The notes beneath the pieces are model-generated. The model had not been told where the DNA came from, ran no database searches, and was given only the letters and a program-made list of their open reading frames with translations. 64,000 bases of DNA from assembly GCA_913062555.1 (NCBI GenBank), contig CAJXVU010000012.1, forward strand, positions 1-64,000. Reading direction: 5' to 3'. Within the stretch, counting starts at the first letter, position 1; the number at the start of each line of letters is the position of its first letter. A program made the position numbers and the translations under genes. This DNA comes from an uncultured Bacteroidota bacterium. GTDB lineage: Bacteria; Bacteroidota; Bacteroidia; Flavobacteriales; Flavobacteriaceae. Positions 20,484 to 25,400 of this stretch are shown one piece after another.

Positions 20484-20491
20484 CAAATATA
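20484..20491 (-). promoter_or_regulatory. -7 promoter element TATATTTG for the suf operon
   Basis: An exact TAnnTTTG match on the minus strand, about 125 bases upstream of the first suf gene. This predicts a leader of about 120 bases, longer than at other promoters in this window. Confidence 0.5.
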
Positions 20492-20556: not shown

Positions 20557-21621
20557 CTATGGGTTTTTAAAGTTTGGATTGTTTATAAAGGATTCATCAG
20601 AAAGCGATAATAAAAATGCCTTTAGGTTGGATTTATCTTGAGCTGAAAGATGTACACCACCTTGAGCCACTTTTTTCATTAAGGGGTCTATTGTGGTTGA
20701 ATTTTGAAGCCCTTCACTATAATGATTTATAACTTCATCTAGTGAATTAAACCTGCCGTCATGCATATAAGGCGCTGTAAAGGCCAGGTTTCTTAATGAT
20801 GGCGATTTAAATTTACCGTTATTGGCAGGGTCTCCTGAAATTTTCCCCAGTCCTAAATCGGTGATTATGGCGTCTAGCCCATTGTTGTGAAAGATATTAT
20901 CCGTCCATAAAGGATTATTCGCATTACCATGACAATGAAAGCAATCACCACGGGTTTCGTCCATAAAAACATTGAATCCTTCTAATTCTTCAGACGTGAG
21001 GTTTATTTGCCCTAATAAATATTGGTCAAATCTTGAATTGGCTGAAATTAAGGTGCGCTCAAACTGTGCAATGGCTTTTGTTACTAATATTGAATCAATG
21101 GTTGACGTTCCAAAGGCTTGATCAAAAAGGGATGGATAGTCCTGGTCTTGTTGTAATTTTGAGCTTACATCCACCCAAGTTGCTTTCATTTCAATTGGAT
21201 TAGTTACCGGCTGAAATGCTTGATGTTCCAAACTAAAAGCGCGGCCATCCCAAAAAAATCTTTCATTGTAATTCCAAGCTAAATTAAATAATGGCATAGA
21301 ATTCCGATTTCCTAAACGGCCATCAATTCCATCACTAAATCTTGAAGCATCTGAAAATGCATTTTCAGGAGTATGACAATCTGCGCAAGCCTGTGTATTA
21401 TCACCTGATAATATTGGATCAAAAAACAACTTCTTTCCCAGTGCAATTCCTTCAATGGTTTGAGGGTTGTCTAAAGGAATGACTGGAGCTATAATGTTAT
21501 CTTCAAATAACTGAGGAATTTCTAAAGCAATTGGGGTTGGTACATATTCGGTTACATTTTCATCTGTACATGATGTGCAAATGAAAACAATGGAAGCTAT
21601 ATATGGGAAGTATTTGTTCAT
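20557..21621 (-). CDS. MbnH-like diheme cytochrome c peroxidase-family lipoprotein
   Basis: A 354-residue lipoprotein (lipobox CTSC, Cys18) of the diheme cytochrome c peroxidase/MauG superfamily. Two heme-binding sites are visible: CADCH (79-83) and CFHCH (227-231). A characteristic TAPYMHDGRFNSLDEV stretch follows the second heme. It starts ten bases after the stop of an MbnP-family gene. In methanotrophs the diheme protein MbnH oxidises a Trp of MbnP to kynurenine as part of copper binding, so the tandem arrangement suggests the same enzyme/substrate pairing here. A plain H2O2-detoxifying peroxidase is the alternative. Confidence 0.85.
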   Translation of the reverse strand: MNKYFPYIASIVFICTSCTDENVTEYVPTPIALEIPQLFEDNIIAPVIPLDNPQTIEGIALGKKLFFDPILSGDNTQACADCHTPENAFSDASRFSDGIDGRLGNRNSMPLFNLAWNYNERFFWDGRAFSLEHQAFQPVTNPIEMKATWVDVSSKLQQDQDYPSLFDQAFGTSTIDSILVTKAIAQFERTLISANSRFDQYLLGQINLTSEELEGFNVFMDETRGDCFHCHGNANNPLWTDNIFHNNGLDAIITDLGLGKISGDPANNGKFKSPSLRNLAFTAPYMHDGRFNSLDEVINHYSEGLQNSTTIDPLMKKVAQGGVHLSAQDKSNLKAFLLSLSDESFINNPNFKNP

Positions 21622-21631
21622 AAAAACGTTC

Positions 21632-22390
21632 CTATGGAATTAATTCACCTAAGCTAAAAACATTTTGACCGTTATCATGCATCATAACTTGAGCATTGAA
21701 ATTTGGCATAAGCATGTTCCCTAATAGGTTTAAATCCCATTGATTAGGATTTTTAAACCACTCGGCAATATTCATATTAATGACAATAGAGGCGTTGTTT
21801 TTAAGCTCAACTTCACCCAAATCAACGGTAAAAAAAGTGTCTTGAAATACCTGTTGGGCTCCTGAATTGTCGACGGCTCTAATGCAGTGATATGCGTAGC
21901 CTGTTTGGGCAGATGCATTGTCAATAAATTTCCCTTCCAATTGCATAAAATGATAACCACCACCTAACTGTGCAGGAACATTCCATGAGGCAGAGTTTAA
22001 ATCGGTGTAATTTTGATAATTATCGTCATTATTAAATCCAAAAGTGAACGATACGTTAATATAATGCCCAGTTAGCATTTCATTTGGGAGTGTATAAATT
22101 AGGTTAGTGTTATTTGTAACATCAATTAAATTATACGCGTTAATTACCGTTGTTTCTCCATTAACTTTTCTAAATGTAATATTCGAAATTAAATACCTTA
22201 GTTTTTCAATGCTGAGCGCTTGGCCATTTGCATTGGTATATTGAATAGTGTTAAATTCTGAATTGGTAACATTTGTACCATCCCAGTTATGAGTAAAATT
22301 GAAAGAGACAGAGGTAGGTGGATCATCATTGTCTGAATTGCAAGACACAAATAACATGCAAATTAAAAATATTGACACTATTTTTTTCAT
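21632..22390 (-). CDS. MbnP-family periplasmic/surface lipoprotein
   Basis: A 252-residue lipoprotein (lipobox FVSC, Cys17) resembling the MbnP family: FNFTHNWDGT near the start, LSIEKLRYLISNITF (about residues 57-71), FTFGFNNDD, and a GGGYHFMQLEGKF motif followed by AYHCIRA. Conserved Trp and His residues are candidates for copper binding or for oxidation by the adjacent diheme protein. It is four bases downstream of the repeat lipoprotein gene and ten bases upstream of the MbnH-like gene, so the group is one operon. The copper role is inferred from the family. Confidence 0.8.
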   Translation of the reverse strand: MKKIVSIFLICMLFVSCNSDNDDPPTSVSFNFTHNWDGTNVTNSEFNTIQYTNANGQALSIEKLRYLISNITFRKVNGETTVINAYNLIDVTNNTNLIYTLPNEMLTGHYINVSFTFGFNNDDNYQNYTDLNSASWNVPAQLGGGYHFMQLEGKFIDNASAQTGYAYHCIRAVDNSGAQQVFQDTFFTVDLGEVELKNNASIVINMNIAEWFKNPNQWDLNLLGNMLMPNFNAQVMMHDNGQNVFSLGELIP

Positions 22391-22393
22391 GAG

Positions 22394-23725
22394 TTAATTT
22401 TCAATTAATTGAATTAACAATAGATCTGTAAACCCTTTGTTTATCATGATATTGTTATCAGAGCTGTTTGATTCGCCAGCGGCAACAATTGTACCGTTAT
22501 TAAGCTGGATAGCATCGTAAACAAAATCAATATCCGACCCTCCAATGGTTTTTTGCCACTGTATATTTGCCGCTCCGTCAACTTTTAATATCCAGGCATC
22601 ATTTTGTCCTTGGTTTGAAGAAACATCACCATCTGAGCTCCTAGAACTCCCGCCAATTATAAAACCATTATCTAAAGTTCTATCAATAGAACGACCTACA
22701 TCAAAACTGCTGCCACCGAATGATTTTTCCCAGATTAATTCTCCCGAGGGAGACATTTTAATAAGCCATAAATCGGCAGCTCCCATGTTTTTAGAGATAT
22801 CTAAATCGTTGCTTCTTGAGTCTCCAACAATAATATAGTTTCCATCACCAGAATTAACGATGGCACGAGCTTCATCAATTTCTGTGCCCCCAAATGATTT
22901 TTCCCAGATTAGTTCTCCTGTAAAAGCTATTTTTATGATCCAAAAATCATAAGATCCCCTATTGTTATTAATATCTACATCATTACTATCCGATGAACCA
23001 ACAATAAGATATCCATCATCTGTTTGTATACTATCATAAGGTGTATCTGTAAATGTTCCTCCATAAAATTTGCTCCATTGTTTTTCTCCATTGGCACTGA
23101 GTTTAATTACCCAATAATCACCACCAGCATGCTCGGTTGAACTCGTACGACTATTCCCTAATCCACCAGAGGCAGTAACATCCAAAACCCCAGTTAATAG
23201 ATAGCCGTTGTCGCTAGTTTGAAGCAAAGAAATGCCGTTATCCAAACCAGAAAAGCCAAATGATTTTTGCCAGGAGATATTTCCAGACACATCTAATTTA
23301 GCAATCCAATAATCTTGAGAGCCCGCATTATTATCGATATCTTCATTACTGCTTTGGCTGGAGCCTATTATTGCAAATCCGCCATCAGAGGTATTAATAA
23401 TATCACTGCCTCTATCATCATCACTCCCGCCATAGGTTTTTGACCACTGCAAGTCATGCTCTGAATCAAACTTAAGGACCCAAAAGTCAAATCCTATTTC
23501 GGCTTTATCAGTAATGTCTTGATCACTACTTTGTGTATAGCCAAGAATAGCATATCCGCCATCCATAGTTTTTGTTAGGGCTTGAGCACTTTCATTATTT
23601 GTCCCTCCATATGTTTTAATTGTCAAATCAATGTCCTTTACTGAGGAGGAATCATTATTTGAAGTGCAATTAAACAGAAACAAAAACAGGATTGCTATTA
23701 AAACAAAGTATTTATTTTTCTCCAT
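22394..23725 (-). CDS. Beta-propeller-like repeat lipoprotein
   Basis: A 443-residue lipoprotein (LFNC, Cys20) built from about seven repeats of some 55 residues, each with the pattern DGGY.I.G.S.S...D, then DFW..K and W.K..GG. The arrangement suggests a beta-propeller at the cell surface. No catalytic motif is visible. It lies in the middle of the minus-strand operon ending in the MbnP/MbnH-like pair. Its function is unknown; it may be a surface binding or scaffold protein. Confidence 0.75.
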   Translation of the reverse strand: MEKNKYFVLIAILFLFLFNCTSNNDSSSVKDIDLTIKTYGGTNNESAQALTKTMDGGYAILGYTQSSDQDITDKAEIGFDFWVLKFDSEHDLQWSKTYGGSDDDRGSDIINTSDGGFAIIGSSQSSNEDIDNNAGSQDYWIAKLDVSGNISWQKSFGFSGLDNGISLLQTSDNGYLLTGVLDVTASGGLGNSRTSSTEHAGGDYWVIKLSANGEKQWSKFYGGTFTDTPYDSIQTDDGYLIVGSSDSNDVDINNNRGSYDFWIIKIAFTGELIWEKSFGGTEIDEARAIVNSGDGNYIIVGDSRSNDLDISKNMGAADLWLIKMSPSGELIWEKSFGGSSFDVGRSIDRTLDNGFIIGGSSRSSDGDVSSNQGQNDAWILKVDGAANIQWQKTIGGSDIDFVYDAIQLNNGTIVAAGESNSSDNNIMINKGFTDLLLIQLIEN

Positions 23726-23735
23726 TGTTACTTAA

Positions 23736-25208
23736 TTATGTGCCACTTTTTCGGACAATAAATAACCCGCTTTGCATATCACTAATTATAATATTACCAC
23801 TTGGAAAATAGGGATAGACATTCCAAGCGCCACTAAAACCAACGGTGTCACTTGAAGGATAGGTGTCAAAATATCCAATTTCAGACATAGTGCTATCACC
23901 AATGTTTGTAATATCTATTATTCTTACCCCGGCCTTGTAGTTTGCCAGATAATATAGGTCCCCATTCACATACCCATTATGGTCTATCGCTGGCGAAGGT
24001 CCAGAATATTGCATGTGTTGTGCAGGGTTGTCTAAATCAGTAAAGTCAAGGACTATTGTTCTGGTATTATTACCAAAATTTATTTCGTCAAGTTCATCAC
24101 CAACTATAAAATATTTATGATCCTCAGTAAACCATCCTTGGTGTGTGTATTTTATATTACTATATGTAATCGTTGCTATTTGAACGGGGTTTGATTTGTT
24201 TGTAACATCAACGATTACAACTTCATCTTCATTACTTCCAACTAATATTTCTTTTCCGGTATAATCTGAATCAGGCCCATTATAGGTGATGACTTGTGCA
24301 TCATGAGCATAGCCTCCAAATCCACCTTCATCAACTGGACTTGTTGGATTTTGAATATTTATAAAAAGTGGGCCTCCGGCATAGGTTCCGGTTCTGCTTG
24401 TACCAACGATATAAGCATATCCCGTTGTTTCATTAATAACAATGTTGTGAGCGCTACCAAAGCCTGTAAAATGAGCATCAGGTGTAAAAGTCTCGGGTAC
24501 ATTTGTTACATTTCTTAATCGCCTTAAATCAAAGACTTGCATGCCATGATTAGAGGCTTCACTAACGATAAAAGCATGATCATTATATACTTTAATATCC
24601 CTCCACGAGCTATTATTAGTTGCCGTTGGAAGTTTGCCAACTAATATTGGGGCTAACGGATTTGAGATATCAACAAAAGCAACTCCGGAAGTCACGCCAA
24701 CTAAAGCAAATTCTTTGCCAGAAGTAGCATCGGTCCAGCCCCACGAGTCATTCCCTGATAAACCAGCAGCGCCTAAATCAGTCAAGCTCATATGTGCCAT
24801 TAAATCGTAATCATTACAAGGGTAAATACCAGCCATACCATTTTCACAGGGGGACAATACTCCAGTTGACAAATCATCGTCACAAACATCTCCTACTCCA
24901 TCATAATCTGCGTCTTCCTGGTTAGCGTTTGCGATCAATGGGCAGTTGTCGTCGGCGTTTAAAACACCATCATTGTCCAAATCGTCATCACAAACATCGC
25001 CGATGCCGTCTTGATCGAAGTCTACTTGATCACTATTAGGAGTTAAAGGACAATTATCTAAATCGTCAGCAATACCGTCAATATCTGTGTCAATTACAAC
25101 TATAGGCGCTAATGATGTGTCTTCATCAGAACAGCTTTGATAAACAGTCATTAAAAGTCCGCATATAATAATTAGGAATAGTTTTGGGGTTTTTCTTTTC
25201 TTTTTCAT
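23736..25208 (-). CDS. Choice-of-anchor B, LVIVD-repeat lipoprotein with thrombospondin type 3 repeats
   Basis: A 490-residue lipoprotein from ATG 25208 (lipobox YQSC, Cys26); the frame extends three codons up to a TTG that I reject. Residues about 40-110 contain acidic Ca-binding thrombospondin type 3 repeats ([20 protein letters not shown] and similar). The rest is a propeller of LVIVD-like repeats ([38 protein letters not shown]), as in choice-of-anchor B proteins. It is the first gene of the operon that ends with the MbnP/MbnH-like pair. Confidence 0.85.
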
Positions 25209-25400
25209 TATATACAATTTTAAAAGGGATACCTCATAGAATGCAGTTATTAGTAAAACGTATCCTTAAAGATAAATATTATAAGCTATAATTACGAAGG
25301 TTAAATATAAGAGAATACTAATGAGGTAAAGTAATTTTTGATAAAAGTTAACTCTATGTTAATTTTATTTATAATGTTTAGGTGCTAATCAACTAAAAAC

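Follow-up and report, generated by a model that had tools for sequence, protein, structure and literature searches.

In the Methylosinus trichosporium OB3b system, the MbnP protein is thought to require a kynurenine made by its partner MbnH for copper binding. The residue oxidized to kynurenine is reportedly the first Trp of a WxW motif, as Manesis et al. are said to have found in 2021, and that study, along with Kenney 2019, is reportedly the source for the His/Met ligation in this system. Surface Cu(I)-kynurenine sites accompanied by a diheme peroxidase-like partner are also found in MopE and CorA (PMC3912023). The MbnP/MbnH pair was recognized as being conserved far outside the methanobactin producers in a 2013 survey of methanobactin systems (PMC3621798). 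The presence of an MbnP/MbnH pair outside the methanotrophs is hence not new.

Here we present such a pair from a marine flavobacterium, encoded in a stretch of 64,000 nucleotides that we analyzed as a whole (the window). What appears to be new is that the conserved residues of this Flavobacteriaceae type of MbnP have been rebuilt, the Trp destined for kynurenine being apparently optional, whereas the diheme partner is not. With moderate confidence, we interpret the pair as a form of the MbnP/MbnH system specific to the Flavobacteriaceae, in which a surface copper-binding lipoprotein and its diheme maturase would be co-expressed with two further lipoproteins, SBBP and anchor-B. It shares with the OB3b proteins (PDB: 7l6g, 6e1c) the MbnP fold and the adjoining diheme MauG-like partner; however, it lacks a methanobactin operon, is a lipoprotein with propeller partners and has only ~15% identity. 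It would also resemble the CorA/CorB and MopE/SACCP pairs of methanotrophs in combining a surface Cu(I)-kynurenine protein with a diheme peroxidase-like partner, but their site comprises two His and kynurenine; neither MopE nor CorA was among the matches listed for the PDB sequence searches and the fold comparison of the MbnP model. MauG, likewise a Tyr-ligated diheme enzyme that oxidizes a Trp of its partner protein, differs in that this partner is methylamine dehydrogenase.

The MbnP and MbnH proteins of the window

Both genes are on the minus strand, with MbnP (22390-21632) followed, 10 bases on, by MbnH (21621-20557):

21632..22390, minus strand: MbnP-family lipoprotein of the GGGYH subclade, 252 aa (PF20243, AlphaFold2 model, 7l6g fold match)
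20557..21621, minus strand: MbnH/MauG-type diheme c-type cytochrome lipoprotein, 354 aa (PF03150, TIGR04039, 6e1c)
21373..21387, minus strand: first heme motif of MbnH, CADCH (C79-H83)
20929..20943, minus strand: second heme motif of MbnH, CFHCH (C227-H231)
21250..21252, minus strand: codon of the inter-heme W124 of MbnH, equivalent to MauG Trp93 via the FWDGRA motif
20719..20721, minus strand: codon of MbnH Y301, which takes the place of the sixth ligand in an alignment with 3o5c and 6e1c

The MbnP protein matches PF20243 (E 6.5e-27; 95.1 bits, exceeding the curated cut-off of 27), and its AlphaFold2 model (pLDDT 93.4, pTM 0.86) recovers the solved MbnP 7l6g far above any other fold in Foldseek (E 5e-8) and with VIA (Z 16.5, rmsd 3.4 over 210 residues; next fold Z 6.4), at a sequence identity of just 13-15%. 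In PDB searches, 7l6g was recovered with a profile of the canonical family but not with a subclade-dominated profile, and the single window sequence retrieved nothing. The WxW equivalog model TIGR04052 does not match the window protein, which lacks the complete motif; since the second Trp is replaced by V138, we file it under PF20243, apparently outside that equivalog. Similarly, the diheme protein belongs to PF03150 (CCP_MauG; E 8e-58, 196 bits), with MbnH 6e1c as its closest solved structure (E 3e-51) and TIGR04039, the MbnH family, as its best NCBIfam model. As its 255.8 bits fall short of the curated cut-off of 362.85, we class it as of the MbnH/MauG type rather than as a TIGR04039 equivalog, by its profile scores. 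The canonical Bacteroidota pairs tested also miss the cut-offs of both TIGR04039 and TIGR04052 (226 bits for their MbnH partners).

A first-pass annotation, made from the nucleotide sequence, had placed a diheme CxxCH lipoprotein directly after an MbnP-like lipoprotein at these very positions, and profiles, fold and lipoboxes all agree with it. Its view of the pair as surface lipoproteins of a flavobacterium, outside the methanotrophs, is likewise upheld: both signal peptides are of the lipobox type, and the acidic residues following the Cys (CNSDNDD in MbnP; CTDENVT in MbnH) resemble a surface-export signal, whereby both are predicted to be surface lipoproteins. So too is its remark that methanobactin genes are lacking, given that MbnB (PF05114) has 0 matches in the window's genome (assembly 89% complete). 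It overlooked that two further lipoprotein genes precede the pair in what appears to be one operon of four.

The adjacency of the two genes is not due to chance, as a diheme gene lies directly downstream on the same strand in 115 of the 118 MbnPs of our Bacteroidota collection. Among the three unpaired cases, one has a large inserted ORF and in another the sequence ends before the next gene. An ORF of 929 residues that splits MbnP from MbnH at L109:6959-11030 is one of the few such interruptions. PF20243 was found in 78 of 296 Bacteroidota genomes, and the window MbnP itself finds matches in 131 of the 299 genomes of its own family; its named relatives (Wocania, Flavivirga, Algibacter, Tamlana and Winogradskyella) identify this family as the Flavobacteriaceae.

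Membership in PF03150 raises the alternative of an ordinary bacterial cytochrome c peroxidase that scavenges H2O2 and neighbors MbnP by accident, a finding that the first-pass annotation had held would undo its proposal. The six-coordinate heme of such peroxidases has Met-His ligation, as against Tyr-His in MauG (PMC6405878). By alignment, the Met-His high-potential heme is absent here: Y301 corresponds to Met266 of the Shewanella CcpA (3o5c) and to the Tyr of 6e1c, and this sixth-ligand Tyr, as in MauG, is seen in 56/56 MbnHs of the subclade and 55/59 canonical partners, with the inter-heme W124 also present in all 56 of the former. In favor of the alternative, some diheme enzymes with heme properties like those of MauG, BthA among them, are true peroxidases (PMC6405878). 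Tyr ligation is no proof of protein oxidation, yet it argues against an ordinary peroxidase. Further, the MbnH model outscores the other models (187.6 bits for that of MauG), and the near-universal pairing with MbnP, along with the joint replacement of both genes, also weighs against accident. Hence, we regard this alternative as very unlikely. A second diheme lipoprotein (G000:C4:19187-19636; L283:6981-8153) shares the Tyr of this motif (NHYND) but lacks an adjoining MbnP; it is possibly a MauG-like enzyme with a different partner.

Probable operon and exchange of the pair at the suf locus

Upstream of the pair are two propeller lipoproteins, and downstream lies the Fe-S assembly operon:

23736..25217, minus strand: choice-of-anchor B lipoprotein (thrombospondin-3 repeats and LVIVD), first gene of the operon (TIGR04312, 551.5 bits)
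22394..23725, minus strand: SBBP beta-propeller lipoprotein, upstream operon partner (partial match to NF047494)
20484..20491, minus strand: TATATTTG, a -7 box of the Bacteroidota type in the gap from MbnH to hesB/sufA

The order anchor-B, SBBP, MbnP, MbnH holds in all 42 large subclade loci of the window's family (window included), with one to four copies of anchor-B, and in each of these 42 the MbnH gene is followed on the same strand by hesB-sufB-(x)-sufC-sufD-sufS. The same core order was recovered in 70 of 80 named relatives. With intergenic gaps of 3-10 bases and a lipobox in each of the four proteins, the window set looks like a single operon of surface lipoproteins. In contrast, the suf genes are probably transcribed as a separate unit from their own promoter, as a TAnnTTTG box is seen in nearly all loci irrespective of the pair: 116 of the 119 pair loci have it in the gap from MbnH to hesB (~15 expected), and the 38 pair-less loci all have it upstream of hesB (~4.5 expected). 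A functional coupling to suf through a common operon was accordingly set aside, given this box and the fact that the SBBP-hesB junction also holds unrelated genes; the adjacency looks merely positional.

The content of the slot between SBBP and hesB varies. In five Flavobacteriaceae loci (L104, L105, L107, L157 and L109) it is occupied by a canonical WxW pair, in 36 pair-less loci SBBP abuts hesB or unrelated genes, and in two loci without the cassette (L182, L183) thiL adjoins hesB. These alternative states at the same slot indicate that MbnP and MbnH are gained, lost and exchanged together, in place. In the tree of SBBP, pair loci of either type are split from the pair-less loci by one branch (support 99), with the five canonical-pair loci branching before the GGGYH loci. 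Unlike this, the sufB tree, which is weakly resolved owing to the high conservation of sufB, has at least seven changes between pair and no pair, and a single pair-less clade is rejected (AU p 0.004). Thus, by its phylogeny, this version of SBBP goes with the pair. We also observed that many genomes lacking MbnP/MbnH still have anchor-B and SBBP (22394-25217 in the window) next to suf, implying a role of their own for both propeller lipoproteins.

Residue 136 and the putatively rebuilt site of the GGGYH subclade

MbnPs fall into two clean groups, the GGGYH subclade, whose members in the window's family are 37-69% identical to the window protein, and the canonical MxWxW type (20-30%); the residue counts below are from 122 non-redundant MbnPs of the former and 62 of the latter. 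The relevant codons in the window are:

21983..21985, minus strand: W136 (TGG), aligned to the first Trp of WxW (family and 7l6g alignment)
21950..21952, minus strand: H147, invariant only within the GGGYH subclade (122/122)
21887..21889, minus strand: H168, the family-wide His (60/62 canonical, 122/122 subclade)
21737..21739, minus strand: W218, a subclade-specific Trp (121/122) and alternative oxidation candidate
21707..21709, minus strand: M228, a subclade-invariant Met (122/122)

The alignment of the target Trp had been proposed beforehand as a check, and the target is not absent: W136 aligns with the first WxW Trp of the canonical family and of 7l6g (GMAWNWQ). Together with the family His, this is what the window protein shares with OB3b MbnP. 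Against this, its motif (LNSASWNVPAQLGGGYHFM) has Val138 in place of the second Trp and Ala134 in place of the Met at W-2, and it has the additional subclade-conserved H147, M228 and W218. By alignment, and with Phe at 136 in 28/122 close relatives, the OB3b site is thus not preserved in its original form. Besides H147, H168 and M228, Q234 is invariant in the subclade, and W36 and W211 are each conserved in 116 of its 122 members. Outside the family, L127 and L264-L267 come from other Bacteroidota families; the outgroup GGGYH-type MbnP of L127, which adjoins a TonB receptor, retains the Met at W-2 (MEWPVAMGGGYHYM) and is apparently intermediate between the two types of site. The canonical Bacteroidota pairs come from the same phylum, are lipoproteins with the same gene order and can occupy the same locus, but retain MxWxW, lack GGGYH and have other neighbors outside the suf locus.

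The key variation in the subclade is at position 136 itself, which is Trp in 93 members and Phe in 28, with no third residue. That only these two are seen, although going from Trp to Phe takes two base changes, points to a requirement for an aromatic side chain. As canonical MbnPs have Trp here in 61/62, Phe is most likely the derived state. It is found in most of the Winogradskyella recovered, in Bizionia, Psychroserpens, Lacinutrix and Jejuia, and in two Hyunsoonleella species. Mapped on the MbnH tree, the Trp/Phe label changes eight times, with at least four changes forced by well-supported branches. A second, Trp-bearing MbnP in these genomes was ruled out, as each of the 13 Phe-type genomes checked has a single copy.

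The MbnHs of the Phe lineages nevertheless retain both CxxCH motifs, Y301, W124 and E144 in 27-28 of 28 cases, the sole gap being a partial contig. Their dN/dS is 0.081, based on only 7 pairs, as against 0.088 in the Trp lineages (20 pairs), and their rate relative to SBBP is 0.64 versus 0.70; relaxed selection was thus not seen. From these comparisons, MbnH is evidently not decaying in lineages without W136, and kynurenine at 136 cannot, on this evidence, be its only use in the subclade. The first-pass annotation had suggested a post-translationally made site. One part of this stands, in that W136 is present in the window, and we give its oxidation there about an even chance. The other does not: with Phe in 28/122 relatives whose MbnH is intact, the kynurenine is not a conserved requirement, and the Phe-type members contradict its being the mechanism of the subclade as a whole.

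These observations bring to the fore an alternative in which no kynurenine is needed. Here, H147, H168 and M228 would hold Cu(I), an unmodified Trp or Phe at 136 would cap the site as the Trp does in CusF/SilF, and MbnH would oxidize another residue, such as the nearly invariant W218. The strict Trp/Phe alternation, its repeated occurrence on the MbnH tree, the lone MbnP of the Phe-type genomes and their constrained MbnH are all in its favor, as is the precedent of SilF, which combines a Trp cap with a His/Met/Met site (PMC10656224). It has to contend with the retention of W136 in the window, the near-universal Trp of the canonical relatives and the small number of Phe pairs behind the dN/dS value. 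We consider it possible, if on the unlikely side.

Under the MbnP/MbnH variant that we favor, MbnP would be a surface-anchored lipoprotein binding Cu(I), matured by MbnH, a MauG-type diheme enzyme, through peroxide-driven oxidation, with the two genes co-transcribed with SBBP and anchor-B. In the window, W136 would most likely be the residue turned into kynurenine. In the subclade, the site would have been rebuilt around H147 and H168, probably with M228, such that Phe at 136 is tolerated, and MbnH would have some use independent of W136.

The probable copper link and its implications

Copper binding by the window MbnP is inferred from its family, its fold and its exchangeability with the canonical pair; there are no copper genes in its operon or the adjoining locus. 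This absence, a ligand set unlike that of OB3b and the adjoining Fe-S assembly operon might suggest that the MbnP fold was reused for another metal, heme or surface redox sensing. However, canonical pairs can take the place of this one at the locus, and suf has an apparent promoter of its own, which renders that neighborhood positional; both points speak against such a role, and we deem it very unlikely. Canonical pairs do have suggestive Cys-rich neighbors, mostly without Pfam or NCBIfam names: a small CxGKCxLxK protein is encoded upstream of MbnP in 17 Bacteroidota loci (including those around L115-L124), and a barrel protein starting with ACDxCxC is found downstream in 13 loci. We propose these as candidate metal proteins that go with such pairs. 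A few canonical loci also have a TonB receptor distantly matching the copper-receptor model TIGR01778.

In evolutionary terms, close relatives of the window bacterium have repeatedly swapped W136 for Phe and yet kept a fully constrained MbnH. These natural W- and F-type proteins make both the target of MbnH and the need of kynurenine for Cu(I) testable; if the site indeed functions without kynurenine, Winogradskyella and similar genera would represent natural cases that lack the Trp but have a functioning enzyme. Likewise, the in-place exchange of whole pairs furnishes matched sets for the study of partner specificity, and SBBP, whose tree tracks the pair, is a candidate partner of MbnP/MbnH. 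Thus, the textbook MbnP/MbnH mechanism may fail in this branch.
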